From contig NZ_OY781470.1 of the NCBI RefSeq assembly GCF_963676935.1, positions 1,956,680 to 2,020,679 of the forward strand: a stretch of DNA of 64,000 bases, written 5' to 3'. Below the pieces are notes generated by a model that saw nothing but the letters and a program-made list of their open reading frames with translations, was not told the DNA's origin and ran no database searches. Shown here piece after piece: positions 10,552 to 42,349 of this stretch. Positions within the stretch are counted from its first letter, which is position 1, and every line of letters starts with the position of its first letter. A program made the translations under genes and the position numbers. Source of the DNA: Halarcobacter sp. GTDB lineage: Bacteria; Campylobacterota; Campylobacteria; Campylobacterales; Arcobacteraceae.

Positions 10552-11626
<1,075 letters not shown>

Positions 11627-15804: not shown

Positions 15805-17934
15805 TTATGGATTAATTCCATAAGAAGCAGCAAGTTGAATAAACTCTTGAGAACCAATAAAGCCATTTAAAATATCATCAGTTGTTGCACCTTGTGCTAT
15901 TTGTGACAACCAACTATTTTTACCTCCTGCATCTGCCTCTCTATTAAAAAATGCTCTATAGCATATATCTAAGAATGTTGAATCATCTAATCCTCTTTGC
16001 ATATACTCTTGGGAATTAAAAAACCCTTTTGCTATATCTCCTCCTGCTTTTGTCCCTGCTCTTAATTGACTTACCCAATCATTAAATCCTACTTCATCTG
16101 CGCTTCTATTTAACACTAAGTTATAGAATCTATTTACATATCCTGGTACTTCTGTTATTTGATCTATATCTCTTATTTGTGTTACTCCAAAACTATCTGC
16201 TAGGTTTTTAAATTCTTGAGCATTTAGAAATCCGTATATTACTTCTATTCTACTAGTACCATTATTTAATTGATTTAACCAAATATCTCTTCCTCCACTA
16301 TCTGCTACTCTATCAAACAGTGTTTGGTACAGTATATCTACGAATTGTTCATTTGAGAGTCCAAGATTTATAAATTCTTGTGATTGGAAAAATCCTAGGG
16401 CTACTTTTGCGGCACTTTGATTTTGGATTATATCTAGCCAGGTATTTAATCCTCCTGTATCTGCGCTTCTATTTAGGATATTTTGGTAAAACCTTTCGAT
16501 GAAGGTTTGTTGTTGATATGTAGCTATATTTACAGTACAATCTTCATAAATACTTTGTATACATACTACACCGCTATTTAGTTTATCTGCAACAGTTGAA
16601 ATATCGCCTCCATAACTAGATTTTCCCCAAGCAATAACAGAACCATCAGTTTTTAAAGCTACAATAGCTTCCATATTTGAATAAATTCCTGCTATACTTT
16701 CACTTAGATTTGATGGCAAATTACTTGTATCTATTTCACTACCTTCTTGTCCACCCCAAGATACAATAGAACCATCTTCTTTAATTGCAGTAAAAGCACC
16801 TTCAGTGGGATATATCTTTACTACACCACTACTTATTTTTGAAGAAACTGAGCTACTGTCTCCTCCTGACATTGAACTTCCCCAAGTTACAACTGAGCCA
16901 TCATCTTTTAATGCTGCAAAGGCATAAGCATTTGCATAAATTTTATTAATACCACTACTAAGTTCATTTGATACACTACTGCTATCTCCTCCACCCATTG
17001 AACTTCCCCAAGTTACAACGGAACCATCTTCTTTTAAGCCTGCAAAAGCAGACCCTGATGAATAGATTTTTGATATTCCATCTATTGAAGAGGGAGGATT
17101 TATAATAGAATAGCCCAAATCTGGTGGGAGCATATCATATCCCCACATTATTATTGAACCATCATTTTTAATTGCTGAAAAGAATGAAGCATTTGAATAG
17201 ATTTTATTTATGTTACTAGTTAAACTAGATTTAACATTATCAAAGTTTTCTATAAATCCCCAAGATACAACCGATCCATCATCTTTCAATGCTGCAAATG
17301 CCGTTGCAATTGAATAGATTTTCACTACTCCACTACTTAAACTCGATAAGACAGTATCTCCACTTATAGTACCAGGAGGAGCCATAGTTAAATTATCAAA
17401 AGGTATAACTGAACCATCTTCTTTTAATGCTGCATAGCCAGTATATGCTGAATATATTTCAACAACACCACTACTTAAACTAGAAGGAATATTAATATCT
17501 TGATTGCCCCAAGTTAAAACTGAACCATCTTCTTTTAATGCTACAAATCCAAGCGGATTAGAATAAACTTTTTTTACTCCACTGCTAAGACTTGATGAAA
17601 CACTACTACTATCACCTCCAAATTCAGGATAACCCCAAGTAATAAGTGAACCATCATTTTTCAAGGCAGCAAAAGCAGAAGATGAAGAATATAACTTAGT
17701 TACTCCACTACTTAAATCTGATGCAACACTACTTATATCTCCACCATATCTTGAATCTCCCCAAGCAACAACAGAGCCATCACTTTTTATTGCTGAAAAA
17801 GCTAAATTATTAAAATATCCACCTGAATTTTTCCCTATTTTTTCAAAAATCTCTTCAGCATACAAATAATTAATAGATACTATTAATGTTATCATAAAAA
17901 AAGATTTTTTCATTAAACTACTAATAACCAACAT
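15805..17934 (-). CDS. Secreted RCC1-like repeat protein with C-terminal DUF4214 x4
   Basis: A 709-residue exported protein. A basic start (MKKSFF) and a hydrophobic helix ending at LYAEE look like a signal peptide. Residues about 30-455 hold roughly a dozen repeats of 33-40 residues with the core AFAALKDDGSVVTWG followed by GGDSSSVSS and SSGVVKIY. This is the pattern of RCC1/BLIP-II-type beta-propeller blades. Residues about 470-705 are four DUF4214 repeats (for example RFYQNILNRSADTGG), ending ASYGINP, the same end as the 26499 gene product. The start at 17934 has AGGAG 10 nt upstream; an internal ATG at 17913 has none. Function unknown; a surface binding protein is a guess from the layout. 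Confidence 0.85.
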   Translation of the reverse strand: MLVISSLMKKSFFMITLIVSINYLYAEEIFEKIGKNSGGYFNNLAFSAIKSDGSVVAWGDSRYGGDISSVASDLSSGVTKLYSSSSAFAALKNDGSLITWGYPEFGGDSSSVSSSLSSGVKKVYSNPLGFVALKEDGSVLTWGNQDINIPSSLSSGVVEIYSAYTGYAALKEDGSVIPFDNLTMAPPGTISGDTVLSSLSSGVVKIYSIATAFAALKDDGSVVSWGFIENFDNVKSSLTSNINKIYSNASFFSAIKNDGSIIMWGYDMLPPDLGYSIINPPSSIDGISKIYSSGSAFAGLKEDGSVVTWGSSMGGGDSSSVSNELSSGINKIYANAYAFAALKDDGSVVTWGSSMSGGDSSSVSSKISSGVVKIYPTEGAFTAIKEDGSIVSWGGQEGSEIDTSNLPSNLSESIAGIYSNMEAIVALKTDGSVIAWGKSSYGGDISTVADKLNSGVVCIQSIYEDCTVNIATYQQQTFIERFYQNILNRSADTGGLNTWLDIIQNQSAAKVALGFFQSQEFINLGLSNEQFVDILYQTLFDRVADSGGRDIWLNQLNNGTSRIEVIYGFLNAQEFKNLADSFGVTQIRDIDQITEVPGYVNRFYNLVLNRSADEVGFNDWVSQLRAGTKAGGDIAKGFFNSQEYMQRGLDDSTFLDICYRAFFNREADAGGKNSWLSQIAQGATTDDILNGFIGSQEFIQLAASYGINP

Positions 17935-18071: not shown

Positions 18072-21038
18072 TTATGGTGCTACATTAAAGTAAACTGTTT
18101 TTGTTTTTGTTTTTTCAGGAGTACTTACATTAATTGTAATTTTTGTTTGACCTACTTGTCCCAAAATTGAACTAATAGGAATAGTAATATCTTGACCTAT
18201 ATAATTTATGTTTTGAGAATAGTTTCCTAAAGATATAATATCATTTCTATCAAGCTGTACATCAATTGTCAATGGAGTATTATCTCTTGTATCAATATCT
18301 AAATTGATATTATAAACTCCAAAATCTTTCAATTTGAAAAAGCTATCTAGTGTCATATCTAATACACTTAATTTATTATAATTTAATACAAATGCTTTTT
18401 GTTCATCATCAAAAATTAAATGGTCATAACCTGAATAAGGAATATAAGTTTTTATTAATTTTATGTTTGATGAGTCTGCAATATCTAAAACAATTAATCC
18501 ATTAGATGTATCAGAAATATATGCTTTTTTCTCATCAAAAGATAAACTTACAGAATTAATCACTCCATAACCAGTAGCTTTATATTCTCCTAATAAAGTC
18601 ATATTTTCAAGATTGCTAACATCAAAAACCAATAAAGAATTTCTATCAACAACATATGCTTTTGAACCATTTTTTGAAAGTACAATTTTTGTTGCATTTC
18701 CTTCTGTATCATAAGAACCTAACAATTGTGGAGATGCAGGATTTGTAATATCAAGAGAAATAATCCCATTATCATTATCAGCTAAAATAACTTTTGATTC
18801 ATCAATTGATAGAACTAAATCTAAAGTTCTACCTTGCGTAGCATAACTTCCAATGATAGATGGGTTATAGGTATCTTCTATATTTACAATTAAGAAATCT
18901 GATTCTCCTAAACTATAATTACTATTTGCAATAAATATTTTTGTGTTATCTTTAGATAATTTAATTGAAGCTACATCACCACCAGTATTATATTTATTAA
19001 TAAGAGTGGGGCTTGAAAGATTAGTTATATCAAATATTAATAATCCATTTGTTGAGTCTGCTATATACATTTTTGAATTGTCATTTGAAATAAGAATTTT
19101 GGTAGCATATCCATCCGTATCTTGACTAAAAACTTCTGATATAGAATTTATATTCGAAACATCTAATATATTATATCCAGCAAAATGATTACTGATATAA
19201 ACTTTTGTTTTATCTTGAGATAAGATAATATCTCTTGCTTGCCCATCAAGAGAATAACTACCTATTTCATTCTCAAAACTTTGATTATATATATCTAAAA
19301 TAGCAAAATTATCACCATTTACAATAGCATAAGCTTTTGTCTTATCATCTGAAATTTCAAAAGCAAAAACTCCACCCATCTGACTGTATTTTCCTACATA
19401 AGTAGGTAAATTTAAGTTACTTATATCTAGATAAACTAAACCACTATCTGTATAATATAACATTGTTTCATCATTTGAAAGTTTGATATTATTTATTCCA
19501 TAACTATTATCTATCTGATAACTACTAAATAAACTTGGAGAATTTGAGTTTGAGATATCTAATATCCATAAACCATTTGTCCCTTTTACAAAAGCTTTTG
19601 TTTCATCAGAAGATATATCAAAAAGATGTCCTCCTGCATTAGCATAATTACTCAATAAAGTTGGTGTTGGTGTCGATAAATCAACAATATTAAAGCCTGA
19701 AGTATCTGTAATATATAATTTACTATCATTATTAGAAATTTTTATCCCTTCAGCATAATTTACTACATTGTATTTACCTATTAAAGATGGATTTGTAGAA
19801 TTACTAACATCAATGACTGCTAAACCATAGTTTCCACCAACAAGATAAAGTTTTGAATCATCATTTGAAACTACAAAAGCATAAGAATTAAAATTTTCTT
19901 CATAATATCTACCAAGTAAACTTGGACTAGATGGATTTGAAACATCAAAAACCATGACACCCTTCATAGTATCAAGAACATATGCCTTAGTATTGTCAGG
20001 TGACAAGATCATTGTCATAACAAAACCTTCTGTATCATATTCAACAATTTTTGTTGGATTATTTGGTGTAGTTATATCTAAAATCAAAAAGCCTTTGCTT
20101 CCATTAGGAATAAATGCTTTTGTATTATCATTTGAAATAACAACACTATGTGGAGTACCATCTGATTCATAAAATCCTAAATTATTCATACTATCTTTCA
20201 CATAAACGGACAAAGGAGCAACAATATTATTTAATCCAAAGCTTTCCATTAAATTATAAAATTCTTGAGATCCAATGAAACCATTTAAAATATCATCTAC
20301 AGTAGCACCACTATCAATTTGTGATAACCAATCATTTTTTCCTCCATCATCCGCTTCTCTGTTAAAAAAAGCTCTATAACAAATATCTAAAAAAGTTGAG
20401 TTATCTAATCCTCTTTGTAAATATTCTTGACTTCCAAAAAATCCTTTTGCTATATCTCCTCCCGCTTTTGTTCCTGAATTTAATTGACTTACCCAATCAT
20501 AAAATCCTACTTGGTCAGGTGTTCTATTTAAAACCAGAGTATAAAATCTGTTTACATACCCCTCTACTCCTGTTGTACCGTATGGACTATAATTTAATTG
20601 ATCTTCGGGTCTTATAGATATAACACCAAAAGAATCAGCTAAGTTTTGGAACTCTTGAGCATTTAAAAATCCATAAAGAACTTCTAATTTACCTACTCCT
20701 GAAATTAATTGATTTAACCAAATCTCTCTTCCTCCACTATCTGCTTGTCTATTAAAAAGAGTTTGATAAAGAATATCAACATATTGTTCATTTGATAATC
20801 CTAAATTAACAAATTCTTGTGATTGAAAAAAACCTAAAGCTACTTTTGCTGCACTTTGACTTTGAATTACTTCTAGCCAAGTATTCATACCTCCAATATC
20901 TGCACTTCGCCCTAATATGTTTTGATAAAACCTTTCAATAAAAGCTTCTTGTTGAGTCATACTTGACGCAATAGTATTAGTTTGAAGTACACCTAAGTAT
21001 ATTAAACTTATAAACACTAAACTCATTAACTTTTTCAT
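18072..21038 (-). CDS. Secreted DUF4214 x4 protein with LVIVD-type propeller
   Basis: A 988-residue exported protein. A signal peptide (MKKLMSLVFISLIYLGVLQ, with likely cleavage near TIASS) leads to four N-terminal DUF4214 repeats (about 30-270; RFYQNILGRSADIGG, LYQTLFNRQADSGG, FYTLVLNRTPDQVG, CYRAFFNREADDGG). Residues about 285-890 are roughly fourteen repeats of about 43 residues with the pattern SxDxTKAYVxDxxxGLxxxDISNPxxPxLxGxY, matching LVIVD repeats, which should form one or two beta-propellers. A C-terminal Ig-like beta domain follows (about 900-988). The ATG has a strong AGGGGG ribosome-binding site. Ligand unknown. Confidence 0.87.
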   Translation of the reverse strand: MKKLMSLVFISLIYLGVLQTNTIASSMTQQEAFIERFYQNILGRSADIGGMNTWLEVIQSQSAAKVALGFFQSQEFVNLGLSNEQYVDILYQTLFNRQADSGGREIWLNQLISGVGKLEVLYGFLNAQEFQNLADSFGVISIRPEDQLNYSPYGTTGVEGYVNRFYTLVLNRTPDQVGFYDWVSQLNSGTKAGGDIAKGFFGSQEYLQRGLDNSTFLDICYRAFFNREADDGGKNDWLSQIDSGATVDDILNGFIGSQEFYNLMESFGLNNIVAPLSVYVKDSMNNLGFYESDGTPHSVVISNDNTKAFIPNGSKGFLILDITTPNNPTKIVEYDTEGFVMTMILSPDNTKAYVLDTMKGVMVFDVSNPSSPSLLGRYYEENFNSYAFVVSNDDSKLYLVGGNYGLAVIDVSNSTNPSLIGKYNVVNYAEGIKISNNDSKLYITDTSGFNIVDLSTPTPTLLSNYANAGGHLFDISSDETKAFVKGTNGLWILDISNSNSPSLFSSYQIDNSYGINNIKLSNDETMLYYTDSGLVYLDISNLNLPTYVGKYSQMGGVFAFEISDDKTKAYAIVNGDNFAILDIYNQSFENEIGSYSLDGQARDIILSQDKTKVYISNHFAGYNILDVSNINSISEVFSQDTDGYATKILISNDNSKMYIADSTNGLLIFDITNLSSPTLINKYNTGGDVASIKLSKDNTKIFIANSNYSLGESDFLIVNIEDTYNPSIIGSYATQGRTLDLVLSIDESKVILADNDNGIISLDITNPASPQLLGSYDTEGNATKIVLSKNGSKAYVVDRNSLLVFDVSNLENMTLLGEYKATGYGVINSVSLSFDEKKAYISDTSNGLIVLDIADSSNIKLIKTYIPYSGYDHLIFDDEQKAFVLNYNKLSVLDMTLDSFFKLKDFGVYNINLDIDTRDNTPLTIDVQLDRNDIISLGNYSQNINYIGQDITIPISSILGQVGQTKITINVSTPEKTKTKTVYFNVAP

Positions 21039-22521: not shown

Positions 22522-24825
22522 TTAACTCTTTAATATTTCTTCATAGTTTTTAATAAGGCTAAAAAATTCATATTTTTCTCTAATCTTTTTTTGTTCTAAA
22601 ATTATTTTTTCTCTAATATCATCATCATGTAACATTATATAAATTAATCTAGATAATAAATTATAATTTCTTTTTTGATCAAACATCATAGCTGCACTAT
22701 CAAGTGTTTCAGGAATTGCAGTACTTTTATAAGCTAATATTGGTAGATCAAACCACATTGATTCTACAAAAGGAACACCAAAGCCTTCGTGCTCACTCAT
22801 TGAAAGAAAAAGATCTGCTGACATATAACAAGAAAAAAGTTCTTGATATGAGATATGTCCTGTTAATACTATATCATCTTTATATTTTGATTCATTTATT
22901 TTGTTTTGAATTTTATGTGTGTATAAACTATTAGGAAGATATCTTCCAGCAATAATAAGTCTTGCATTTCCATATAATTCCATATACTCATCAAAAAGTT
23001 CTATTAAGTCATGTTGACACTTATTAGGAGAAACTCTACCTACAAATAAAATATTTTTTTTACCGTCTGCAAATCTTTTCATAAAATTATTATCTATATT
23101 CATCGACCATTTATTTGGTTCAATCACAAGAGGTAATACTTTTGTATTTTTGTATCCAATATACTCTAATTCATCACAATTAAATTTTGAATCCCCAAAT
23201 ACCTTATCAAACTTATTTTTTAAAGCAGGTAATTTTTCCCTACCTTCTTTTAATATTTGAGCGAAAGATTCGTCATAATTTATAAAAAAATCTGAAGGTG
23301 TTATGTTATGATAAATCATGCATTTTTTATTTGCTTTCGAATCTAAAGTATAATCAGTAGCCTTACTACCTATAGAGTGATGATAAATCAATACCATATT
23401 TTCATCATCTTTAAATTCATCTATTGATTTTATCCCATATTTTTTTTGAGATTCAGGACTAACAAACTCACAATATATTTCAGAATTAAAACCTTGTTTT
23501 TTTGCCATTTTATCAATGTAAAGCATTTGTTCAGATATTGCATCTCCACCATCAAAGCCTGCTCCAACTTGAAAAACTTTTTTTTCTGCTTTATTAATAT
23601 CATCTATCTTTTTATTATCACTTATTATTGATTTAAATATTTCAATATATTTTTGAATGATATTATCCCAATTAGCAATTTCATTTGCATATTTAAACCC
23701 AGACCCTGCAATAGTTTTTAATTTATCTTCATTTAAAGAAAATAATTCATCAAAAATATTAAATAAACTTTCTGTACATTCAAAAGCCCAACCTGCATTA
23801 CTTGACTCTAAAAGAGAGATATATGTTGCTCTACATTTTTTATTAACAATTACTGGCTTTAAACCATACCAAGCTTCATAAATGATTCTTGAGAAACTTT
23901 CATTTTCACTTGGATTTATCATTGCTTTACAGTGTTGTATTAAATTATACTTATCATCTTCACTAACTAAACCTAAATCAATAATACAAGACTTATCTAT
24001 GTTTTCAGGAAGTGTACCAACACCAGCTAAAACTAACTTTACATCTTTTTTTATTTTTTTAACATATTCTTCAAAAACTTCAATTAGATAAGTTGTATTT
24101 TTTGTAGCATCTCTTCTACCTATAAATAAAATATAATCACCTTTTACTATAGGTTCGCCTTTTTCACTTTGAAGCAATTTTGAAGAAACTTCTATTCCAC
24201 TACCCACCATATATGATTTTAAAATCATAGAAGGTCCATAAAGTTTTGTAGCTATTTCAAGCTCTCCTGTAGAATTAAATAGTATTGCTTTTCCATCAAT
24301 AAAATTTTCTCTTACAGCTTTTAAATAAGCATAACCTTCATCATGTAAACAAGGTTGTAAAACAGCTTTGTTTTTAACTTTATTTATATTTTTTATAATT
24401 GGACCATATAGATATGGAAGAAATAAAAATATGTCATATTCATTTTTATTTTTTTCTATATAATTTTCAAGATTTTTAGAATTTATATTTTCATTTATAA
24501 AAAAGTCTTCATCTTCTTTAGCAACTGGAAAATAATTACCTTTTTCTTTATGAGATATAATTTTACCATTAGAATCTCCAAACTTTAGAGGAGTTATATT
24601 ATCAACTGAAAATCTTTTTACTTTGAGTCCATCTACAATATATTCATCTTCTTTATAGAAATCATTATACCAATCATCTAAAAAACTTTTACTACAAGTT
24701 GTAAGTACCGTTAAATCTATATCTTTTTGAATATTTAATCTCGAAGAAACTTGCCAAGCTAGTTGCTCTGCTCCGCCTTTTAAATCTTTTCCAAACCAAG
24801 GAATAATAACTGCAACTTTAATCAT
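22522..24825 (-). CDS. Tandem two-domain glycosyltransferase (GT4-GT4)
   Basis: One protein with two complete GT-B enzymes. Module 1 (about 1-400) starts MIKVAVIIPWFG with KGGAEQLAWQ, and has ILFIGRRDATKNTTYLIEVF and ENESFSRIIYEAWYG. Module 2 (about 425-767) has ILFVGRVSPNKCQHDLIELF and SEHEGFGVPFVESMWFDLPI. Each has an E-x7-E pair, so two successive transfers by one polypeptide are plausible. The frame is open to a TTG at 24840, but the ATG at 24825 is the better start: GAGGAAGAAAGA precedes it and it begins like the downstream homolog. It overlaps the end of the DUF4214 gene by 8 bp. Confidence 0.85.
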   Translation of the reverse strand: MIKVAVIIPWFGKDLKGGAEQLAWQVSSRLNIQKDIDLTVLTTCSKSFLDDWYNDFYKEDEYIVDGLKVKRFSVDNITPLKFGDSNGKIISHKEKGNYFPVAKEDEDFFINENINSKNLENYIEKNKNEYDIFLFLPYLYGPIIKNINKVKNKAVLQPCLHDEGYAYLKAVRENFIDGKAILFNSTGELEIATKLYGPSMILKSYMVGSGIEVSSKLLQSEKGEPIVKGDYILFIGRRDATKNTTYLIEVFEEYVKKIKKDVKLVLAGVGTLPENIDKSCIIDLGLVSEDDKYNLIQHCKAMINPSENESFSRIIYEAWYGLKPVIVNKKCRATYISLLESSNAGWAFECTESLFNIFDELFSLNEDKLKTIAGSGFKYANEIANWDNIIQKYIEIFKSIISDNKKIDDINKAEKKVFQVGAGFDGGDAISEQMLYIDKMAKKQGFNSEIYCEFVSPESQKKYGIKSIDEFKDDENMVLIYHHSIGSKATDYTLDSKANKKCMIYHNITPSDFFINYDESFAQILKEGREKLPALKNKFDKVFGDSKFNCDELEYIGYKNTKVLPLVIEPNKWSMNIDNNFMKRFADGKKNILFVGRVSPNKCQHDLIELFDEYMELYGNARLIIAGRYLPNSLYTHKIQNKINESKYKDDIVLTGHISYQELFSCYMSADLFLSMSEHEGFGVPFVESMWFDLPILAYKSTAIPETLDSAAMMFDQKRNYNLLSRLIYIMLHDDDIREKIILEQKKIREKYEFFSLIKNYEEILKS

Positions 24826-25528
24826 TTCTTTCTTCCTCAAGAATTTTAATTTTTTCTATTATTTTTCCTAATCCATTTTCAAGTACAGCAATATTTTCAT
24901 TAATATTACTTCTAGTTTTTATATTTTCATTGTTCAATGAGTTCAATAAAAAATAAATTTGATCAGACTCATATTTAATTAATTGAGAAATATGGTTTTC
25001 TAAAATATCATTTCGTTTTACAATTTTAGGTAAACGGATAATTGTAATTAATAATTCAGAAATATAACCAATAATTGGAATTTTATAAAATGATCTTAAT
25101 ATGAACTTTGGCCATAAACCAACAATTTTAATATTTTTTAATCTTGATTCTTTAGATAAATATATTCTACCTATAATATCAATTTTGTGTAATTTACCTG
25201 TTCTTAATTTATTAAGATAATAATTCAAGCCATTTTCATCTGCTTCTCTATGAAGTATAGCTCTATAACAGTTTTTTATAAAATCTACATCAGTAAAATA
25301 TAAAAGCTCACCAAGAGTATAAGTATTTTTATGTAATATTCTATAGTCTTGTTTTAAATAATTACTACTAATAGATTCTTTTAAATGATTAAATCTAATA
25401 GAGTATTCATTTAATAATTGTTTTCTTAATTCTCGTTCATAAGCAATTTTTTCAAGTTTTTGTTTTTCATTCTCTAATTTTTCATAAAGTTCATTTTTAT
25501 CTATACTTTGTATTTTTAATGTCAACAT
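24818..25528 (-). CDS. Cytoplasmic DUF4214 / coiled-coil protein
   Basis: A 236-residue protein without signal peptide. Residues about 8-60 are a charged coiled coil, residues about 80-135 one DUF4214 domain (NCYRAILHREADENGLNYYL, then SKESRLKNIKIVGL), followed by a hydrophobic/amphipathic stretch (FYKIPIIGYISELLITII) and a second coiled coil at about 190-236. The order DUF4214, KIPI..Y, LPK, coiled coil is the same as in the N-terminal third of the large methyltransferase protein at 58512, so this looks like a short paralog without enzyme domain. It sits immediately upstream of two GT4 genes. It may organise glycosyltransferases at the membrane (inference). Confidence 0.7.
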   Translation of the reverse strand: MLTLKIQSIDKNELYEKLENEKQKLEKIAYERELRKQLLNEYSIRFNHLKESISSNYLKQDYRILHKNTYTLGELLYFTDVDFIKNCYRAILHREADENGLNYYLNKLRTGKLHKIDIIGRIYLSKESRLKNIKIVGLWPKFILRSFYKIPIIGYISELLITIIRLPKIVKRNDILENHISQLIKYESDQIYFLLNSLNNENIKTRSNINENIAVLENGLGKIIEKIKILEEERND

Positions 25529-25560: not shown

Positions 25561-26502
25561 TTAGTTATCATGGTTATTTTTAATATATTTAAAAAAGAAA
25601 GATGGTATGGTTAATAATGCTAAAGGCATATAAGTTCTAAATTCTTCAACACGTGAAATTAAGAAATGACCGATTAAGAATGGAACTATAACAAAGGCAA
25701 TAGCTTTAATTATTTTTGGTTGATTTTTCCAAGTAAATAGTATAAAAATAAATGGTAATAAAGATACTAATAAATATGGGTAAAACATTAAATTTAAATC
25801 TAACATATTTGCTATATTATATCTATATTGCCAAACTCCACCTAAATAATCTCTATCCATACCATAGTACATCTTTATAGACATTAAAACTGCTACTGTA
25901 ATAATTCCTAATATAAACGTTTTTAGAAATATAATTTTATAATTTTTTTCTTCTTTTAACAATTGATAAACAAAAAACAATGGAACAAGAAAAATAACTG
26001 TTGTTTTATTTAGTGCACCAATTATTAAAATTAAAGAAAGAAGAAAAAACTTATCTTTAACAATTGCAAAATATGCAAGTAAAAAAATAAATATATTAAT
26101 CTCTTCTGATGGCTGGATATGAGCCATAGCACTTAAATTATATAAATAAAAAAAGATCAATATAATAAAAAAAGATATCTCTTTTGAGAAATAGTTTTTC
26201 AAAAAGATATAATAAGAAAAAGAGATTAAAAATAAAAAGATAAATCTTTCAAATAAATAAGCTACATGTGTTTTCATACCAAATAAATTTATAAATACTT
26301 CAGGAATAGTAAACGACAACCATCTAAACTGAAGAGGGGCAGGAGCTGCTGAAGTTATATGAGTAATATGCCAAGACTCAAATCTATCAAAAATTATATT
26401 TGCTACTTTTATATATTCTATTTCAGATATAAGTGAAACTATTAGTGAAAAAATCACTAATAGTAACAACTCATTTTTTTCTAATTTCAATCTTTCTATC
26501 AT
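25561..26502 (-). CDS. Polytopic membrane protein, possible GT-C glycosyltransferase
   Basis: A 313-residue inner-membrane protein with about eight or nine hydrophobic helices. Between helix 1 and 2 is a periplasmic loop with ITSAAPAPLQFRWLSF, a conserved-looking segment seen in membrane proteins of polysaccharide loci that resemble polyprenyl-phosphosugar-dependent (GT-C) transferases, though an acidic catalytic pair is not obvious. It overlaps the preceding secreted-protein gene by 4 bp. Since the same region encodes a polyprenyl-phosphoryl-arabinose-type pathway, it is a candidate final transferase. Function not proven by sequence. Confidence 0.55.
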   Translation of the reverse strand: MIERLKLEKNELLLLVIFSLIVSLISEIEYIKVANIIFDRFESWHITHITSAAPAPLQFRWLSFTIPEVFINLFGMKTHVAYLFERFIFLFLISFSYYIFLKNYFSKEISFFIILIFFYLYNLSAMAHIQPSEEINIFIFLLAYFAIVKDKFFLLSLILIIGALNKTTVIFLVPLFFVYQLLKEEKNYKIIFLKTFILGIITVAVLMSIKMYYGMDRDYLGGVWQYRYNIANMLDLNLMFYPYLLVSLLPFIFILFTWKNQPKIIKAIAFVIVPFLIGHFLISRVEEFRTYMPLALLTIPSFFFKYIKNNHDN

Positions 26503-29500
26503 GGATTAATGCCATATCTAGCAGCTAAACTGATAAATTCTTGAGACCCTAAAAATCCATCTAATACTTCTTCTCTAGTTTTAAGATTATTTTCAAGATC
26601 ATTAAACCAAATATCGTAACCACCTTGGTCAGGTTCTCTATCAAAGAATGCTTTATATAAAACTATTAAATATTCTTTATTACTGTAATTCTTATTTGTA
26701 AACTCTTGACTAAAGATAAACCCTTTTGCAATATCAGAACCGCTAGAAATATTATTCAATAATCTATATGTCCAGTCATTTAAACCACCTGAGTCAGCAT
26801 CTCTACCTAAACAATAACTATAAAATCTACTAACAAATTTTTCGACATCAGTTAAATTTGTATTTTCTACATTAAATGGCAAAATACCGTAACTATTACT
26901 TAAGTTAGAAAATTCTGTTGAATATATAAATCCATTTAACACTTCTTGCCTCAATGTCCAAGCATCTAATTTGTCTTTCCAATATGAAAAACCACCTGGA
27001 TCTGAACTTCTATTAAAAAATGATTCGTATAATATTTCAATAAATTGATCATCAGTAACATTTTTATTTATAAATTCTTGACTTAAAACAAAACCTTTTG
27101 CTACGTCAGCACCCACACTAAGTTTTGTAGTTAAATTATCAAGCCAATTATTTAAACCAACTGGATCAGCAGTTCTACCTAATACTTTAGAATACATTCT
27201 TTTGATAAATTCTTCTATTTTATATGTTGTTTGATTAAATTGATATCTTGCACTTCTAGGGTTAAAATTATTTTTTACACTTGAATATGCCCATCTATAT
27301 ACGATAGTTTTATTATTTGCAGTATTCATTCCACCACTAATTATATCTTGAATACCATCAATATCAAAATCAGTAATTGCAGGTGAAGCAGGGAAGAATT
27401 GAGTTACAAAATTAAAAAAACTTGTATCTGTTAATTGATTACCATCTTTATCTACAATCATAATTTGTGGACCTTGAGTATAAATAATTTCAAGGTTTCC
27501 ATTATTTGTTAAATCTACAGCTAATAATGGAACATCAATATCTACATCACCTGTTCTAAATATCGGTGTTGTTTTTGTTTCAAATAATCTATTTCCAAGA
27601 TGATCCCAAGCATAAATGTATCCATTAGCAGTAGCAGCAACTATTTCTAAATCACCATCATTATCCAAATCGCAAACAATGGGATCAGCACTTGTTCTTC
27701 CATTAGTATCTAATTTATATTTTAAATTACCGTCATGTTCAAAAACTTTTACATAGTTACCTAATGGATCTTCATGATATCTTCCTGTACCATAAATAAT
27801 TTCTAAATAATCATCTCCATCAATATCTGCAACTTGTGGAGTACTCCATAATGTTTGCTCTTCCCATTTTCCTTTAAGTGTTTCATAACCTAATTCTTGA
27901 CCTGTACCTACAAATTGATCAAAGCCAGGAATATTTTGTTTTCCATTTGCAGAAATAACATGAAAAATACCTCCAGTAGTAGTACCTGGATCTGGATTTT
28001 CTGTAATATCAGCAGATGCTAATATTTCATATTTTCCATCTTTATTTATATCAGTTACTTTAAATGTTGACCAGATTGTATCAAGTAAAGGAACAGGCCA
28101 ACCCTCTTTAGGTTGTCCTGTTACACCATCAAGTACCCATGCTCTTTGATCCCAACTTCCAAAAATTACTTCTTTTGTACCATTTGAATCAATATCAAAT
28201 ATTATAGGAGAGCCAAAAACACCTTCTTTTTTAGCATCACCAACAGCATGAAAACCTTCATGAAACCATTTTGTAGTACCATCTTTTTCAAGAGCATAAA
28301 CCCCACCTAAATCTCCCCATTGACCAACTGAAGCCTCTACACCATTTTCTATAATTGAATTTGCTCCTACTCCTATTACAATTTCTATTTCTCCATCATT
28401 ATCGATATCTCCAAATGTTGGAGGAGAACTTATTGATGTTGTATTGTAATATTTGCCCGTAGTTGGATCTGGATCAGACATAGCTGGAAAAGTTTTTTCC
28501 CATTTAACTGTACCATCTTTTTCTAAACAAATTAAACCTGCAGGTAAAACTTCATTATAGTTTGAATCAAAGCTTTTCCCAGTACCTACAAAAATTTCAT
28601 CAACTCCATCATTATCTATATCGAAAAGTGCAATTGAATTTTTTGCACCAATTGGTCCATAGTTTAATTCAGTAGCCCAGATAGTATCTGTATGAAAGTT
28701 TAAAGAATAATTGTTTTGACCTTCACCTACTATTCTTAAGTAATAATATCCCGGGTTGTAAGTTCCATTTCCTATATCTGTAGCAATTTCTCTTTTTCCA
28801 TTACTTAAATCTTCTGTATTAGATGCATTTATTAAACTTCCTGTATCGTTATATAAAAACATTGTTGTATTATCAGATAAGTCTACATAATCAAAATTTA
28901 ATGTAATTGTATGTCTTCCATATGGAATATATACTTTATACCAATCTTCATCAGCTGAAACTTGATTTGAAATACTAAAATTTGCGCTATTCACAGTTGT
29001 GGCATTACTAAAAGTATCATCTCCAGAGTTGTTATCATTTGCATCATCATTTTCATAATTAAAATTATTAGATATTTTTAAACTATATGAACCATCAAAA
29101 TCATCTGTTCCAACTTTAATATAATATAAGCCTGGTGTATGGACATGATATTGGATTGATTCTTTTACACCTGCCCCTGAAGGTCTTTGCAATATAGGGG
29201 TATTGCTACTACTATATAAAACCATATTTATGTCTTTACCTGAAGTTGGAGTCATTTCTAAATATAATAAACCTGGTTCTGTAACATTTATTTTAAACCA
29301 ATCATCATCTGCATTATTAGCTTCTAATGAGTATTCACCATAATTAATCTCTTTTGCAGAAGCGAAATCATCATTTGGTTCATAAGAATCAGTATTTTGC
29401 CAAACAGTATTGTTACTAACTTGTAAGTTATAAGTATCATTACTTGTTCCATAAATTCTGTAATAATAATCACCAGCAGGATGCCCTACTCCAATATTGT

Positions 29501-30161
29501 AACTTAATGAAATATCACCTGTAATTAATTGTGGACCATAAATTGGGGTATTAGAAGGACCATATAAAATAAAATAATTAGTTCCAGTCAAAGAGTTAAA
29601 AGTAATATCTGTAGCTAATACATTTCCTGAAGAAACATTTATTTTAAACCAATCTTCATCTTTATTTACCAAGGATAAGTTATTTGTCGAACTAAGAACA
29701 GTAGCAGAAGATTTATTATCATTTTGTTCGCTCGCATCATCTCCTAAAGCAGAAAAACTGTTTGATATTTCTAAATCATATGGTCCACCAGCATCATCTG
29801 TATCAACAACTATATAATAAGTTCCTACTTCTGAAAAATAAAGTATTTCTTCAGTACCAGAAGCTAAATTAGCTGCTAATAATTGATCACTTGAATTTTT
29901 TATAACTACATTTATATCTGTAGTTCTAGAAAATGAAGGATTTACTTTTGGGGTCATTTTAATATATAATAACCCTGGTTCTGTAACATCTAATCTAAAC
30001 CAATCTTCACTACTAGAATCTTCCATTTCTAAAGAAGTGTATGTTCCATAACTTATAACAGTAGCTGCTGCCATATTGTCATTTGGTTCGTAAATGTCAC
30101 TTGCAAATGATCTAAAACTAATAATTATACTAAACAGTATAATCTTTATAACCCTTTTCAT
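26499..30161 (-). CDS. Very large secreted protein: PPC x4, FG-GAP/VCBS propeller, DUF4214 x4
   Basis: A 1220-residue exported protein. The signal peptide ends near FRSFAS. Residues about 22-490 contain four bacterial pre-peptidase C-terminal-type domains, each opening with EPNDN or a variant followed by DWFKINV and LYYIKVGTDD-like strands. Residues about 495-960 are an integrin-like FG-GAP/VCBS propeller with repeated DIDNDGxxEIxxG calcium-loop motifs (DIDNDGVDEI, DIDNDGEIEI, DINKDGKYEI). Residues about 985-1220 are four DUF4214 repeats ending ARYGINP. GGAG precedes the ATG and a TATAAT box is upstream. Likely a Ca2+-binding surface or extracellular protein; no protease domain is present despite the PPC domains. 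Confidence 0.88.
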   Translation of the reverse strand: MKRVIKIILFSIIISFRSFASDIYEPNDNMAAATVISYGTYTSLEMEDSSSEDWFRLDVTEPGLLYIKMTPKVNPSFSRTTDINVVIKNSSDQLLAANLASGTEEILYFSEVGTYYIVVDTDDAGGPYDLEISNSFSALGDDASEQNDNKSSATVLSSTNNLSLVNKDEDWFKINVSSGNVLATDITFNSLTGTNYFILYGPSNTPIYGPQLITGDISLSYNIGVGHPAGDYYYRIYGTSNDTYNLQVSNNTVWQNTDSYEPNDDFASAKEINYGEYSLEANNADDDWFKINVTEPGLLYLEMTPTSGKDINMVLYSSSNTPILQRPSGAGVKESIQYHVHTPGLYYIKVGTDDFDGSYSLKISNNFNYENDDANDNNSGDDTFSNATTVNSANFSISNQVSADEDWYKVYIPYGRHTITLNFDYVDLSDNTTMFLYNDTGSLINASNTEDLSNGKREIATDIGNGTYNPGYYYLRIVGEGQNNYSLNFHTDTIWATELNYGPIGAKNSIALFDIDNDGVDEIFVGTGKSFDSNYNEVLPAGLICLEKDGTVKWEKTFPAMSDPDPTTGKYYNTTSISSPPTFGDIDNDGEIEIVIGVGANSIIENGVEASVGQWGDLGGVYALEKDGTTKWFHEGFHAVGDAKKEGVFGSPIIFDIDSNGTKEVIFGSWDQRAWVLDGVTGQPKEGWPVPLLDTIWSTFKVTDINKDGKYEILASADITENPDPGTTTGGIFHVISANGKQNIPGFDQFVGTGQELGYETLKGKWEEQTLWSTPQVADIDGDDYLEIIYGTGRYHEDPLGNYVKVFEHDGNLKYKLDTNGRTSADPIVCDLDNDGDLEIVAATANGYIYAWDHLGNRLFETKTTPIFRTGDVDIDVPLLAVDLTNNGNLEIIYTQGPQIMIVDKDGNQLTDTSFFNFVTQFFPASPAITDFDIDGIQDIISGGMNTANNKTIVYRWAYSSVKNNFNPRSARYQFNQTTYKIEEFIKRMYSKVLGRTADPVGLNNWLDNLTTKLSVGADVAKGFVLSQEFINKNVTDDQFIEILYESFFNRSSDPGGFSYWKDKLDAWTLRQEVLNGFIYSTEFSNLSNSYGILPFNVENTNLTDVEKFVSRFYSYCLGRDADSGGLNDWTYRLLNNISSGSDIAKGFIFSQEFTNKNYSNKEYLIVLYKAFFDREPDQGGYDIWFNDLENNLKTREEVLDGFLGSQEFISLAARYGINP

Positions 30162-30236: not shown

Positions 30237-30830
30237 TTATCTAAAGGGTTTATAAAATTTTTCATTGGCAATGTCTAGCATTTCTTTATCTCCACTACTA
30301 TCACCATAAGCATAAATAAAATCAAACTCAGTTAAGTTATATATTTCTTTAATACGATTAACTTTTTCTTGCCCATAACAATTTTTAGTAAGAAATTTAC
30401 CGGTTACTTTATCCCCTTTAAAGTCCAACTTTGTGGAGATTAGTTCTAAATTATTTTTTTCACACCAAGGTTGTATCCAACAATCAATAGAAGCTGATAC
30501 AATTACAATTTTATCGTTATTTTTTTTGTGCCAATCAATTCTTTCTATTGCTTTTGGTCTTATAATCTGATTTAAATGATTTAAAGAATACTCATATGAG
30601 ATTTCATAAAATTTATCTTTTTTCATTCCTTTGAAGTACCAGGAAATAAAATATTGTTTAGCTTTATAATTTGGAATAATTTTTAATTTATATAATATTA
30701 ACATTGGAGAAAGAATAATTAATCCAAATAGAAACTTTTTATTTCCTACTGCAAATTTAATAAATTTTAATAAACTATCATCTGTTGTAATAGTTCCATC
30801 AAAATCAAAAAATGCTATTTTGTTACTCAT
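30237..30830 (-). CDS. HAD-superfamily phosphatase (subfamily IB)
   Basis: A 197-residue HAD phosphatase of the SerB-like IB group. Motif I is FFDFDGT with nucleophile D9 and acid D11, motif II is IVSAS, and motif III/IV is YAYGDSSGDKEML. It overlaps the upstream reductase gene by 4 bp (ATGA) and ends the UbiA-GtrA-DprE1-DprE2 operon. In that setting the probable job is removing the 5-phosphate from polyprenyl-phosphoryl-5-phosphoribose, a step mycobacteria perform with a different phosphatase (inference from context). Cytoplasmic. Confidence 0.82.
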   Translation of the reverse strand: MSNKIAFFDFDGTITTDDSLLKFIKFAVGNKKFLFGLIILSPMLILYKLKIIPNYKAKQYFISWYFKGMKKDKFYEISYEYSLNHLNQIIRPKAIERIDWHKKNNDKIVIVSASIDCWIQPWCEKNNLELISTKLDFKGDKVTGKFLTKNCYGQEKVNRIKEIYNLTEFDFIYAYGDSSGDKEMLDIANEKFYKPFR

Positions 30831-31558
30831 ATACTTAACTTTTTGAATATAAATTCTGGTATATGTTTAATTATAAGCATAATAAGTTTCCAAATACCTT
30901 TTGTATAAAGGACATCTTTTTGTTTTTGTTGTGCTTTGAATATATCCAAAGCAATCTCTTCTGGCTGAGAAGTTAATTTCTCAGGAAGATCTAAACCTTC
31001 TGTCATTTTTGTATTAACAAAACCTGGTTTTACCGTTAAAACAGATACTTTACTTTCGTATAATCTATTTCTAAGACCACTTAAGTAAGCACTAAATGCT
31101 GCTTTAGAAGAACCATAAATATAGTTTGCTTTTCGTCCTCTATCTCCTGCAACAGAACTTACGCCAACTATAAATCCATTTTTGTTGCTTTCCATATCAT
31201 TTGCAATAATATTTAATAAACTCACTACACCTGTATAATTGACATTGATAGTATTAATAGTTTTAGTAAAATCCTTCTCACACTCTTTTTGATCTGCCAT
31301 ATATCCTGCCACAACTATAACACCTAAAGGTTTTACTTCTAAGTTATTATAAAATTCTTCATGGGTATCATATTTTGATACATCCAATTCTTTTAACTGT
31401 ACATCTACATTTGAACGAATTTTTATATCATCAGCTAATTCTGCTAAGCTATCACAATTTCTTGCAGCTAAATAAAGACTATATCCATTTTTAGCATATA
31501 CCCTTGCCAACTCTTTTGCTATGTCACTTTTTGCACCGATTATTAATATATAACTCAT
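30827..31558 (-). CDS. SDR-family reductase, DprE2-like
   Basis: A classical short-chain dehydrogenase of 243 residues. It has IIGAKSDIAKELAR as cofactor loop (similar to the GASSDIG/GAKSDIA form of DprE2), catalytic serine near S134, and Y148/K152 (YGSSK). It is adjacent to a DprE1-like oxidoreductase, as in mycobacteria, where DprE1 oxidises decaprenyl-phosphoryl-ribose at C2 and DprE2 reduces the ketone to the arabinose epimer. The C-terminus has a hydrophobic/basic tail (KLIMLIIKHIPEFIFKKL) suitable for a membrane-bound lipid substrate. Confidence 0.78.
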   Translation of the reverse strand: MSYILIIGAKSDIAKELARVYAKNGYSLYLAARNCDSLAELADDIKIRSNVDVQLKELDVSKYDTHEEFYNNLEVKPLGVIVVAGYMADQKECEKDFTKTINTINVNYTGVVSLLNIIANDMESNKNGFIVGVSSVAGDRGRKANYIYGSSKAAFSAYLSGLRNRLYESKVSVLTVKPGFVNTKMTEGLDLPEKLTSQPEEIALDIFKAQQKQKDVLYTKGIWKLIMLIIKHIPEFIFKKLSI

Positions 31559-31559
31559 G

Positions 31560-32858
31560 TTAGATTCCTACTCTTTTTGATTGTAATGATTGAAATTTTT
31601 TATCCATATTATACTCTTTTCTTAACTCTCTAAATTTATCAATGTAAGGATAGCCTTTTTCAAAAGTCTCTTTTGAAACTCTTACATCTTTTGTAAGATA
31701 TATCCTACCACCATATTTCAAAACTATTTTGTCAAGTTTATCAAGTAAGTCAAATAATCCTTTTTCTATTTTAAAATCAAGTGCTAAACTATAACCTTCA
31801 ATTGGGAAAGAAAGATAATTTTGATTTTCTTTACCATAAAGTTTAAGTACTGCTAAAAAAGAGCCTTTACCACTGTTTGAAATTTCAGTTAAAATCTCTT
31901 GAAGTCCTTCAAAACTAACCTCTTTTGGCAAAATAAATTGATACTGGGTAAACCCACCTTTTCCATAAATTCTATTCCAATTATTTATTGCATCAAGAGG
32001 ATAAAAGAATGTATCAATATCAACTTTTTGTTTAGATTTACCACTAGGAGCTTTTTTATAATATAACCAATTAAAAGCCTTTACACTTAATGAATTCAAC
32101 GCAAATGAAGGAAAATTAAAAGGTATGTTCAATTTCTTTTTTTCTTTAAAATCTAGTTTGCCATCATCTGCAAAATCTCCAACCATAAGAAGACATTTTC
32201 CTATGTCACTTCCTTTTGCAAGGCAATCAATCCAAGCAACAGAATATGGCAGATGTGAATATTCTTCAAATGCTTCAAATGTTTCTTTTAAATTTTTAGT
32301 TTTTATTGTAGTTTGATTAATATATTTTGAATTTATTTTTTTTAGTGATATTTTTGCATCTAAGATAATTCCAGTTAATCCCATACCTCCACATGTTGCA
32401 AGAAACAACTCTTTGTTTTCTTTATTAGAACATTTTTTTATTTCTCCATTAGGCAACATTAGATTAAATTCAATTACACAATTTGAAAAACAACCTTCTA
32501 CATGATGGTTTTTCCCATGCACATCACTAGCAATTGCTCCACCTACAGTTATAAGCTTTGTTCCAGGAGTGACTTTTAAAAACCATCCCTTTGGAACAAA
32601 AGATTCTATGATCTCACTTAGCAACACTCCACTTTGACAGTGAAGAACACCACTATTTTCATCGAATTCTAAAAAGTAGTTATAAGGTTTACAATATATT
32701 AGCTCTTCATTTAATGCACTATCACCATAACTTCTTCCATTACCAAAAGGTATTAACTCTTTTTTATCATCTAATTTTTCAACAAGTTTATTTTTGCTTT
32801 TTAATATAAAACTATTGTTTTTTATAATAGGATACATTCCCCAACTATTTAACTGCAT
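31560..32858 (-). CDS. FAD-dependent oxidoreductase, DprE1-like
   Basis: A 432-residue FAD-linked oxidase of the vanillyl-alcohol-oxidase fold. The FAD loop PFGNGRSYGDSALN (37-50) and GGAIASDVHGKNHH correspond to DprE1's conserved FAD site. The C-terminal half carries FTQYQFILPKEV and GGRIYLTKDVRVSKETF, typical of the aldonolactone-oxidase-like cap. The frame is open to a TTG at 32876, but the ATG at 32858 has AAGG six bases before it and is chosen. Expected reaction: 2-oxidation of polyprenyl-phosphoryl-ribose, together with the DprE2-like reductase. It starts 1 bp after the GtrA stop. Confidence 0.8.
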   Translation of the reverse strand: MQLNSWGMYPIIKNNSFILKSKNKLVEKLDDKKELIPFGNGRSYGDSALNEELIYCKPYNYFLEFDENSGVLHCQSGVLLSEIIESFVPKGWFLKVTPGTKLITVGGAIASDVHGKNHHVEGCFSNCVIEFNLMLPNGEIKKCSNKENKELFLATCGGMGLTGIILDAKISLKKINSKYINQTTIKTKNLKETFEAFEEYSHLPYSVAWIDCLAKGSDIGKCLLMVGDFADDGKLDFKEKKKLNIPFNFPSFALNSLSVKAFNWLYYKKAPSGKSKQKVDIDTFFYPLDAINNWNRIYGKGGFTQYQFILPKEVSFEGLQEILTEISNSGKGSFLAVLKLYGKENQNYLSFPIEGYSLALDFKIEKGLFDLLDKLDKIVLKYGGRIYLTKDVRVSKETFEKGYPYIDKFRELRKEYNMDKKFQSLQSKRVGI

Positions 32859-32859
32859 T

Positions 32860-33252
32860 TCAATCCTTAAATACAAATTTTTTATCTAAAAAATATTTAA
32901 CTACATAACCAATACTAAGTCCTATAATAGCACCAATATATTTTGCATTTTCATCTTCAAAAAAGAAATCAAACAATATTTCAAAACCCCAAAATATGAA
33001 TGTTGTAAAAACTCCCATAAGAGAATAAAGCAAAAATTTTTTACCATCATCTTTTTTATTTTTTGGTTTATGATAAAAAATAAACTTCTTATCTAAAATA
33101 TATTTTAAAATTAGTCCAGACAATGTTCCTACAAACATTGCAATATATAATGAAAAAGCACCATCATAAAAATAAAAACTTATATATTGGAATAATAAAT
33201 TTACTAATGTAGAGAAAAAAGCAAATAATACATATCTTATAGCAATATTCAT
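32860..33252 (-). CDS. GtrA-family membrane protein
   Basis: A 130-residue protein with four hydrophobic helices and the GtrA features RYVLFAFFSTLVNLLFQY at the start and YVVKYFLDKKFVF at the end; LDKKFIF occurs in the middle loop. GtrA proteins are thought to help flip polyprenyl-phosphosugars across the inner membrane. A GtrA-like protein also neighbours dprE1/dprE2 in mycobacteria (Rv3789), which supports a role with the lipid-linked pentose here. It directly follows the UbiA gene. Confidence 0.85.
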   Translation of the reverse strand: MNIAIRYVLFAFFSTLVNLLFQYISFYFYDGAFSLYIAMFVGTLSGLILKYILDKKFIFYHKPKNKKDDGKKFLLYSLMGVFTTFIFWGFEILFDFFFEDENAKYIGAIIGLSIGYVVKYFLDKKFVFKD

Positions 33253-34113
33253 CTATAATTTTACCACTATATAAAAACTTAATAACCAAAACAAAATAGT
33301 TAACTGCAAGAATCTATCTTTTATAACAATTTTTGTTGGACTTCCACTATTTTCTTCTACAAATGTTATTTGCATATATCTCATAATGCCAAGGATTACA
33401 AAAAAAGATGTTAAGTAAAGATATTCTGTATTCAATCTTTTTATTACTTCTTCTGAAACTGTGTATAAAATATATGCTACAACTATAACACCAGACATAA
33501 ATACCATCACAGCATTTACGAACTCTAAATTATAACCATCAATATTTTTTCTGGTCTCTTTTCCTTGTGATGATAGAAGTACATCATCTCTTCTTTTTGC
33601 AACAGCTAAGAATAAAGCTAATAAAAATGTCATAATAATTATCCACATTGATAATTGACCTTGAATTACACTTGCTCCTGCAAAAAGTCTTAAAACAAAT
33701 CCCGTAGCAATTATAAAAATATCAACAATAGTAATATGTTTGAGTTTTAATGAATATGCTATATTTAAAATAAAATAAAGACTTAAAACAATAAACAAAT
33801 TAATATTTAATAAATATGCACTTATAAGTGATATTCCTGATAAAAAAAGTATCAATAATTTTGCAGTACTTTTAGTAACTTTTCCACTAGCAAGAGGTCT
33901 AAACTTTTTTTTAGGATGTTGTTTGTCCTCTTCTATATCCATATAATCATTTAATACATAAATACTACTAGCTGTTAATGAAAATAATACAAATGCAAAT
34001 ATTGTATAAAATGAATCATTTGTTGTAAAATGAAATGAAAATAATAATGGTGCAAATACAAATAAATTTTTTATATATTGATGTGGTCTTAAAAGTTTTA
34101 ATATTTGATTCAT
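33253..34113 (-). CDS. UbiA-family polyprenyl-phosphate phosphoribosyltransferase-like protein
   Basis: A polytopic membrane prenyltransferase of 286 residues from the ATG at 34113. The motif NDYMDIEEDKQHPKKKFRP (55-73) is the form seen in DPPR synthases (Rv3806c: decaprenyl phosphate plus PRPP), rather than in quinone-pathway UbiA proteins. A second acidic site is near AVAKRRDD. About eight or nine helices follow. The frame is open to an ATG at 34140 inside gmd; I prefer 34113, four bases after the gmd stop, because MNQILKLLRPHQYIKN is the usual family head. It starts the pathway continued by GtrA, DprE1-like, DprE2-like and HAD proteins. Confidence 0.82.
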   Translation of the reverse strand: MNQILKLLRPHQYIKNLFVFAPLLFSFHFTTNDSFYTIFAFVLFSLTASSIYVLNDYMDIEEDKQHPKKKFRPLASGKVTKSTAKLLILFLSGISLISAYLLNINLFIVLSLYFILNIAYSLKLKHITIVDIFIIATGFVLRLFAGASVIQGQLSMWIIIMTFLLALFLAVAKRRDDVLLSSQGKETRKNIDGYNLEFVNAVMVFMSGVIVVAYILYTVSEEVIKRLNTEYLYLTSFFVILGIMRYMQITFVEENSGSPTKIVIKDRFLQLTILFWLLSFYIVVKL

Positions 34114-34117
34114 TAGT

Positions 34118-35192
<1,075 letters not shown>

Positions 35193-39446: not shown

Positions 39447-39704
39447 CTACTCTTCCATCATTTTACATATTGCATCTGCAACTTCATTTGCAGTTTTATA
39501 TTCAAACATTATTACTGGTTCTATTTCTAAATCATATTCTTCTTCTAAGTACCCACAAAGAAGTACTGCATTAAGAGAATCTATACCAACATCTGCTAAA
39601 TTTGTATCTGCAGTTAATTTATCAAGTGAGACCTTAGTTCTTTTCGATACTTTTTCTAATAAAAATTCTACTACTTCTTGATGCTTATTATTTATATTTT
39701 TCAT
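39447..39704 (-). CDS. Acyl carrier protein
   Basis: An 85-residue stand-alone carrier protein. The phosphopantetheine site is ADVGIDSLNAVLL with S43, in the standard four-helix layout, followed by an acidic helix III (EEEYDLEIEP). It overlaps the upstream P450 gene by 17 bp and has AAAGG before its ATG. It differs from the housekeeping fatty-acid ACP and, placed between a P450, an acyl-AMP ligase operon and an MBOAT, probably carries the acyl chain being modified. Confidence 0.92.
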   Translation of the reverse strand: MKNINNKHQEVVEFLLEKVSKRTKVSLDKLTADTNLADVGIDSLNAVLLCGYLEEEYDLEIEPVIMFEYKTANEVADAICKMMEE

Positions 39705-40767: not shown

Positions 40768-40768
40768 A

Positions 40769-42340: not shown

Positions 42341-42349
42341 AAAATATTC

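Follow-up and report, generated by a model that had tools for sequence, protein, structure and literature searches.

Which surface structure is served by a mycobacterial-type arabinose pathway in a member of the Campylobacterota? The question arises from a 64,000-nt stretch of Halarcobacter sp. DNA (GCF_963676935.1, NZ_OY781470.1 positions 1,956,680-2,020,679; hereafter the window), in which, as an earlier note on this DNA had claimed, genes for homologues of UbiA, GtrA, DprE1, and DprE2 and for a HAD phosphatase are consecutive (30237-34113); they are co-directional on the minus strand, with intergenic distances of -17 to +1 bp. This five-gene cassette very probably directs the synthesis of polyprenyl-phosphoryl-D-arabinofuranose, an assignment made with confidence. 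We think it probable that the cassette supplies a lipid-linked D-arabinofuranose (Araf) donor for the extracytoplasmic decoration of the polysaccharide encoded at the same locus; the O-polysaccharide is taken with moderate confidence to be the acceptor, and the further reading, in which DUF4214 surface proteins encoded beside the cassette are anchored by such a polysaccharide, is offered as a testable proposal.

The cassette and its predicted pathway

The pathway assignment is supported by the homology and motifs of UbiA, DprE1, and DprE2. UbiA aligns over its full length with the structure of a mycobacterial decaprenyl-phosphate phosphoribosyltransferase (8j8j, E 3e-40), for which the number Rv3806c is taken from passages of PMC11127046. 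The DPPR-synthase motif pointed out in the earlier note, NDYMDIEED...HPKKKFRP (residues 64-72), is present and aligns with that of this Mycobacterium tuberculosis structure. The protein scores 211.4 bits on the corresponding equivalog NF008978 (cut-off 207), with the NDxxDxExD motif at 64, and falls 0.1 bit short of a second equivalog, NF008977 (233.9 of 234). A longer reading frame starts at 34140, but the start at 34113, which the earlier note had adopted, is likelier, since the homologue in a related locus (L054) begins at the equivalent methionine. The DprE1-like protein has its best structural match in mycobacterial DprE1 (4aut, E 2e-77) and retains the lysine of LTKDVR; its reading frame extends to 32876, and the start at 32858 was placed from homologues. 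It scores 391.6 of the 500 bits of the NF053785 cut-off, a cut-off reached in none of the 397 Campylobacterota genomes used for the phylum-wide searches, and the DprE2-like protein scores 181.5 of 250 bits on NF053786. Both are therefore described as working like these enzymes and are not assigned to the equivalogs.

In the predicted pathway, the HAD enzyme, probably the 5'-phosphatase of polyprenyl-phosphoryl-ribose-5-phosphate, would take off the 5'-phosphate, and C2 would be inverted by DprE1 (FAD) and DprE2 (a short-chain dehydrogenase/reductase, SDR) to give undecaprenyl-phosphoryl Araf (undP-Araf). GtrA, the probable flippase of the lipid-linked pentofuranose, would flip this intermediate, and a glycosyltransferase (GT) of the GT-C type, most likely the protein encoded at 52360-54360, would transfer Araf to the O-polysaccharide exported through Wzm/Wzt; the DUF4214 surface proteins adjoining the cassette are probably part of the same surface system. 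Where the earlier note had left the product as ribo- or arabinofuranose, the pentofuranose pathway stands, and arabinose is expected rather than ribose because DprE1 and DprE2 are both present.

The order UbiA-GtrA-DprE1-DprE2 is found again in dozens of loci and thus is not a matter of chance; a HAD gene after DprE2 likewise recurs in many of them. With carriers defined by a DprE1 profile match above 330 bits, the cassette is sporadic in the phylum, occurring in 20 of the 397 genomes at 21 places (two in one genome, G264), and the remaining listed matches, at 62 bits or less, are other FAD oxidases. Within the genus it is present in 2 of 16 genomes. At least 560 DprE1 relatives occur in named genomes, and the best 80 include Campylobacterota, Desulfobacterota, Gammaproteobacteria, Bacteroidota, Kiritimatiellae, Chloroflexota, and others. 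This scattered distribution suggests horizontal spread. The cassette comparison covers 42 distinct Campylobacterota places (the window, 20 regions, 1 further region, and 20 named loci, after removal of 7 duplicates) and 53 other loci; the phylum of seven places was fixed by DprE1 sequences identical to those of Sulfurimonas, Helicobacter aurati, or other contigs. A divergent version with the order DprE1-UbiA-membrane protein-DprE2 is found in H. aurati and H. muridarum (L052/L107, L123), and a UbiA homologue with 50% identity to that of the window is encoded on an unverified 6.6-kb phage record from human stool (L139, 898-1767).

Such pathways and their link to lipopolysaccharide (LPS) are already known, because the 2024 PNAS paper PMC11127046 ties them to O antigens. 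According to the portions of that paper seen, a UbiA/HAD enzyme of Citrobacter youngae makes undP-ribofuranose (undP-Ribf), which is diversified by epimerization, a GT-C enzyme attaches the undP-pentofuranose sugar to the LPS O antigen after polymerization, and Araf-containing systems have DprE1/E2 homologues. The earlier note expected a link to LPS to be new, which it is not. The main text of PMC11127046 contains no words beginning with campylobact and no Arcobacter; the organism group and the gene layout found here extend a known pathway. As described in the same portions of PMC11127046, the three-component undP-pentofuranose systems of C. youngae O1/O2 share with the window a UbiA-type polyprenyl phosphoribose synthase (PPPRS) motif and a HAD phosphoribose phosphatase, predicted undP-Ribf epimerization, a candidate extracytoplasmic GT-C enzyme, and a surface polysaccharide locus. 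The pair by which such systems are recognized, polyprenyl phosphoribose synthase plus HAD phosphoribose phosphatase, appears by homology to be present. However, the HAD domain is fused in C. youngae and encoded by a separate gene in the window, a MATE flippase there corresponds to GtrA in the cassette here, and the window has its transferase candidate outside the cassette and DUF4214 partners beside it.

With the mycobacterial decaprenyl-phosphoryl-arabinose (DPA) pathway (Rv3806c, Rv3807c, DprE1/DprE2, Rv3789), the window shares UbiA, DprE1, and DprE2 homologues and a GtrA-type small membrane protein; Rv3789 has been likened to transporters of Glc/Gal O-antigen systems (passages of PMC11127046). 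The two differ in the phosphatase, which is Rv3807c in mycobacteria and an unrelated HAD-IB protein here, and in that the window proteins lie under the DprE1/DprE2 equivalog cut-offs and no Emb/Aft was identified. They differ further at the cysteine of mycobacterial DprE1, which we take to be the residue bound by covalent benzothiazinones: it aligns with Ala365 of the window protein, and the position is Ala in 21/21 aligned Campylobacterota sequences. Covalent DprE1 inhibitors should therefore fail, and sensitivity to DprE1 inhibitors, previously suggested as a check, is unsuitable for the purpose.

Transferase candidates and the polysaccharide locus

A large membrane protein is encoded directly after DprE2 in 20 of the 42 Campylobacterota places and in 7 of the 53 other loci. 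The proteins in this slot form nine unrelated clusters, the largest of which (n = 16, one non-Campylobacterota) is PMT_2/ArnT-like, and a cluster of two (L058, L089) is MBOAT-like rather than GT-C. The window protein encoded at 52360-54360 is colinear with slot proteins of a Sulfurimonas metagenome-assembled genome (L066; 25% over 656 aa, 1e-32) and of Marinicella pacifica (L096; 21% over 485 aa, 2e-10), both encoded within such cassettes, where their genes lie between those for DprE2 and HAD. It is the only one of the window's four unassigned membrane proteins to cluster with slot proteins, and guilt by association marks it as the most likely transferase. As a possible counterpart of the GT136 GT-C transferase of the three-component systems, the protein is GT-C-like by layout alone, and its family occurs in its own genome only, with none in the other 396 genomes of the phylum set at 1e-8. 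An ArnT/PMT_2-type slot transferase was not found elsewhere in the same genome by a slot-alignment profile, used without a positive control.

The periplasmic transferase proposed in the earlier note, the membrane protein encoded at 25561-26502, has fared less well. It is an orphan: at 1e-5 the 397 phylum genomes contain no relative, a search of 104 family genomes gave noise only, and plasmids, PDB, Pfam, and NCBIfam gave no match. Its single-sequence AlphaFold model (pLDDT 55) is of too low quality to be usable, and the 52360-54360 protein is the better-placed candidate.

The acceptor would be provided by the surrounding locus, which carries WbaP-like, heptose, and GT genes of a surface polysaccharide in addition to gmd, Wzt, and Wzm. 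The two gmd copies lie in a 1133-bp direct repeat of 98.5% identity that brackets the cassette and the DUF4214 segment, and the segment looks like a recent insertion or a duplication by recombination. The protein encoded at 58512-60983, next to Wzt, is a possible chain terminator or ruler of the exported polysaccharide that carries the surface-protein module; we presume a likeness to WbdD. A D-rhamnan backbone was considered, but the backbone sugar was left unassigned: although gmd is unambiguous, the 8892-9770 gene scores under every NCBIfam cut-off. Elsewhere in the locus, a further GtrA gene adjoins a GT2 gene (45853-46932), making a separate GtrA/GtrB-like pair.

Several points weigh against decoration of this polysaccharide by the cassette. 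The slot after DprE2 is empty in the window, and the DprE1-like and DprE2-like proteins both score under their equivalog cut-offs. Relatives of the 52360-54360 protein were sought in about 100 cassette loci and the 397 phylum genomes only, a search set that is biased toward finding them beside cassettes. The membrane proteins encoded at 50322-52343 (N-terminal part) and 54341-55963 could also be GT-C enzymes; the first is an odd fusion of a multi-helix GT-C-like part to a phosphoribulokinase/uridine-kinase-like domain. The cassette contains GtrA instead of a MATE flippase, only part of the other window genes having been scanned for one. Finally, by sequence the polysaccharide may be an O antigen or a capsule.

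DUF4214 proteins beside the cassette

Along the minus strand, gmd and the cassette are followed by a 1220-aa DUF4214/FG-GAP protein, the orphan membrane protein, and a short DUF4214 protein; after two proteins of the GT4 type come three further DUF4214 proteins and the second gmd (Table 1). Four DUF4214 tandems of the window sit at the N- or C-terminal end of unrelated cargo, three being 41-77% identical to the first. A link between the cassette and such secreted proteins, raised in the earlier note, is seen again in four other loci, where the cargo is unrelated in every case. A same-strand DUF4214 gene follows the cassette at a distance of 75 bp from HAD in the window, 85 bp in L055, 164 bp in L063, 30 bp (counted from DprE2) in L070, and 345 bp (counted from the slot protein) in L045; the remainder of these proteins comprises FG-GAP, RTX, Lcl_C, or long Thr/Ala-rich stretches. 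With the window and one same-genus locus (L142) left out, DUF4214 is the next gene in 4 of 40 places; the chance figure of 2e-4 assumes a per-gene DUF4214 rate of 0.75%, well above the approximately 10 DUF4214 genes of the window's own genome. None was found beside the cassette in the 53 non-Campylobacterota loci, for which the local profiles had been built from Campylobacterota. Cassette and DUF4214 are both present in 6 genomes (20/397 and 30/397, respectively; p 0.002). Shared ancestry contributes to this co-occurrence, because it is carried by one family (f4: DUF4214 in 4/4 cassette genomes, with at least 26 f4 genomes) and absent in another (f7: 1/9). The literature searched, seen in part, yielded no published link between DUF4214 and pentofuranose. 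A DUF4214 remnant with three stops lies at about 11788-11958, between the second gmd and the first DUF4214 gene.

DUF4214 gave no useful match to PDB sequences. A fold search mainly retrieves domains of phycobilisome linkers (best E 2.8e-5, Z up to 10.2), and the first non-linker match is the N-terminal domain of RsaA (E 0.27 and 0.51, Z 4.4 and 4.3), a weak likeness since unrelated proteins follow at Z 4.0. In the passages seen, DUF4214 has been described as likely surface-anchoring in segmented filamentous bacteria (PMC12780176), and the model of a Halomonas DUF4214 protein has an 88-residue match to the Caulobacter S-layer protein (PMC11970703).

Table 1. Features of the window, with their coordinates and the matches that identify them
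Feature	Position	Strand	Evidence
UbiA-family polyprenyl-phosphate phosphoribosyltransferase (PPPRS/DPPR synthase-like)	33253..34113	-	8j8j E 3e-40, NF008978, NDYMDIEED
GtrA-family small membrane protein, probable flippase	32860..33252	-	PF04138 39.7 bits; NF037976 168 bits, cut-off 50
DprE1-like FAD oxidase	31560..32858	-	4aut E 2e-77; HGKNHH, QYQF, LTKDVR retained
DprE2-like SDR reductase	30827..31558	-	NF005489 357 bits (over cut-off); YxxxK = YGSSK at 148
HAD-IB phosphatase	30237..30830	-	PF12710 117.6 bits; TIGR01490 over cut-off; DFDGT, GDSSGD
Secreted FG-GAP protein, C-terminal DUF4214 tandem	26499..30161	-	DUF4214 186 bits; 75 bp after HAD; Sec-type N-terminus by eye
Orphan multi-helix membrane protein	25561..26502	-	Overlaps stop of DUF4214 gene 26499-30161 by 4 bp
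Coiled-coil-like DUF4214 protein	24818..25528	-	37.7 bits; secretion signal not seen
Secreted LVIVD-repeat protein, N-terminal DUF4214 tandem	18072..21038	-	AlphaFold of tandem pLDDT 83.8
Secreted RCC1-like protein, C-terminal DUF4214 tandem	15805..17934	-	Domain matches
Secreted protein, N-terminal DUF4214 tandem, TSP1 and Lcl_C domains	12128..15610	-	Domain matches
gmd (GDP-mannose 4,6-dehydratase), copy 1	34118..35152	-	TIGR01472 482 bits, cut-off 415; directly upstream of UbiA
gmd, copy 2	10552..11586	-	99.9% identical to copy 1
Best candidate GT-C pentofuranosyltransferase	52360..54360	-	666 aa, many helices, NSD after first helix
DUF4214, long repetitive coiled coil, and methyltransferase	58512..60983	-	Pfam; coiled coil by eye; adjoins Wzt
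Wzt (with Wzt_C) and Wzm, ABC polysaccharide export	60967..62966	-	Wzt_C 102.5 bits, cut-off 30.4; ABC2_membrane

Anchoring, cargo, or glycosylation

Further context comes from S-layer-type loci. The same-genus cassette in genome G427 (L142) lies among four proteins with one common N-terminal domain, including RTX-repeat and metalloprotease-like members, and its locus also holds SapC (204 bits), a type I secretion-type ABC protein, and HlyD. The common domain is a distant profile-profile relative of DUF4214-type N-termini (96.8% probability); calling these proteins Pfam DUF4214 was rejected, as there is no Pfam match and the local label came from a profile built on L142 itself, which is circular. 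SapC, ABC, and HlyD genes also lie within 9 kb of DprE1 in L056. SapC as a general companion (over cut-off in 5/20 cassette genomes vs 23/230 background genomes, or 21/228 with the carriers G003 and G131 removed from the background, as in the test that gave p 0.044) was not relied on.

Genome G108, which is sap-like and which we infer to be Campylobacter fetus, gave no SapC match and carries an array of RTX-bearing proteins of 800-1300 aa with one common N-terminus. In the one member tested, this N-terminus exceeds the DUF4214 cut-off (24.7 bits against 23.2), and the L045 protein shares 34% identity with it over 155 aa. The array ends in gmd and a GT gene, beyond which lie Wzt and Wzm-like genes, a layout equal to the sap-wcbK-wbbC arrangement described for type B C. 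fetus, in which wcbK is described as important for LPS and SapB binding (passages of PMC3887049). According to excerpts of PMC8559796, the S-layer proteins of C. fetus and Caulobacter bind O antigen through their N-termini, and Gram-negative S-layers are without a widespread anchoring domain. The C. fetus Sap and Caulobacter RsaA systems, as seen in parts of PMC8559796, PMC6978808, and PMC3887049, resemble the window in that surface proteins adjoin O-polysaccharide genes including gmd. The likeness to Sap extends to DUF4214 in the conserved N-terminus of the G108 array and to SapC and type I secretion genes beside the same-genus cassette. However, the window proteins look Sec-exported and bear other cargo; the Caulobacter control genome had no PF13946 match.

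On these grounds we tentatively suggest, as a rather doubtful proposal, that DUF4214, with its phycobilisome-linker-like fold, could be a widespread O-polysaccharide-binding anchor of Gram-negative surface and S-layer-type proteins, and that undP-Araf decoration would create or mask its docking site. DUF4214 also occurs in the probably cytoplasmic proteins encoded at 24818-25528 and 58512-60983, and G108 is not among the cassette genomes. Araf itself thus cannot be the general ligand of DUF4214; the polysaccharide backbone may be.

The donor might instead serve a capsule or another glycan unrelated to DUF4214, their adjacency reflecting shared cargo of variable surface-gene islands, which is a possibility to be taken seriously, if still an unlikely one. 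Only 6 of the 42 Campylobacterota places (including the window and L142) have a DUF4214-type next gene and 36 do not, although several contigs end first; 24 of the 30 DUF4214 genomes have no cassette, and in f7 the domain is found in only one of the nine cassette genomes. These figures fit island cargo and count against the DUF4214 link, yet five loci have the two on the same strand within 30-345 bp of each other, far more than the background rate would give, and the element common to these loci is the DUF4214 module, not the cargo.

Alternatively, Araf could go onto proteins, the secreted DUF4214 proteins being O-arabinosylated in the periplasm by the 25561-26502 protein, as proposed for Pseudomonas pilin. 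This is improbable, even though portions of PMC11127046 offer a precedent for protein glycosylation. DUF4214 genes do come after cassettes, and the gene at 25561-26502 overlaps the stop of one by 4 bp, but its product is an orphan and the slot proteins belong to unrelated families. The linked DUF4214 proteins of L055, L045, and L063 show no Sec-type start by eye, and two of them have RTX repeats, so that they probably leave by type I secretion. This route bypasses the periplasm, where GT-C enzymes work; the signal-less RTX partners (such as those of L055 and L045) should therefore skip this compartment, which makes direct glycosylation of all partners unlikely. Anchoring fits Sec and type I export routes alike.

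Genes for a carbamoyltransferase (Pfam) and for ACP-like, two P450-like, radical-SAM-like, and acyl-AMP-ligase-like proteins lie at 37752-45117 and, as read from their sequences, have the look of a small natural-product cluster set within the glycan locus. They are located immediately upstream in the same orientation, but it is very improbable that the lipid-linked sugar serves these genes (36-45 kb) instead of a surface glycan, since the tight gene spacing is with gmd and, after 75 bp, with a DUF4214 gene, and the UbiA-DprE2 core elsewhere occurs in many different surroundings (natural-product genes not having been searched for there).

The cassette has the look of a mobile module in which the donor core is fixed and the membrane proteins can be exchanged, and covalent DprE1 inhibitors are ill suited as probes of the organisms that carry it. 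If DUF4214 reads a decorated polysaccharide, the retention of Gram-negative S-layer-type proteins would become testable from sequence; a domain of unknown function would gain a role, and a widespread Gram-negative anchor domain would be supplied.

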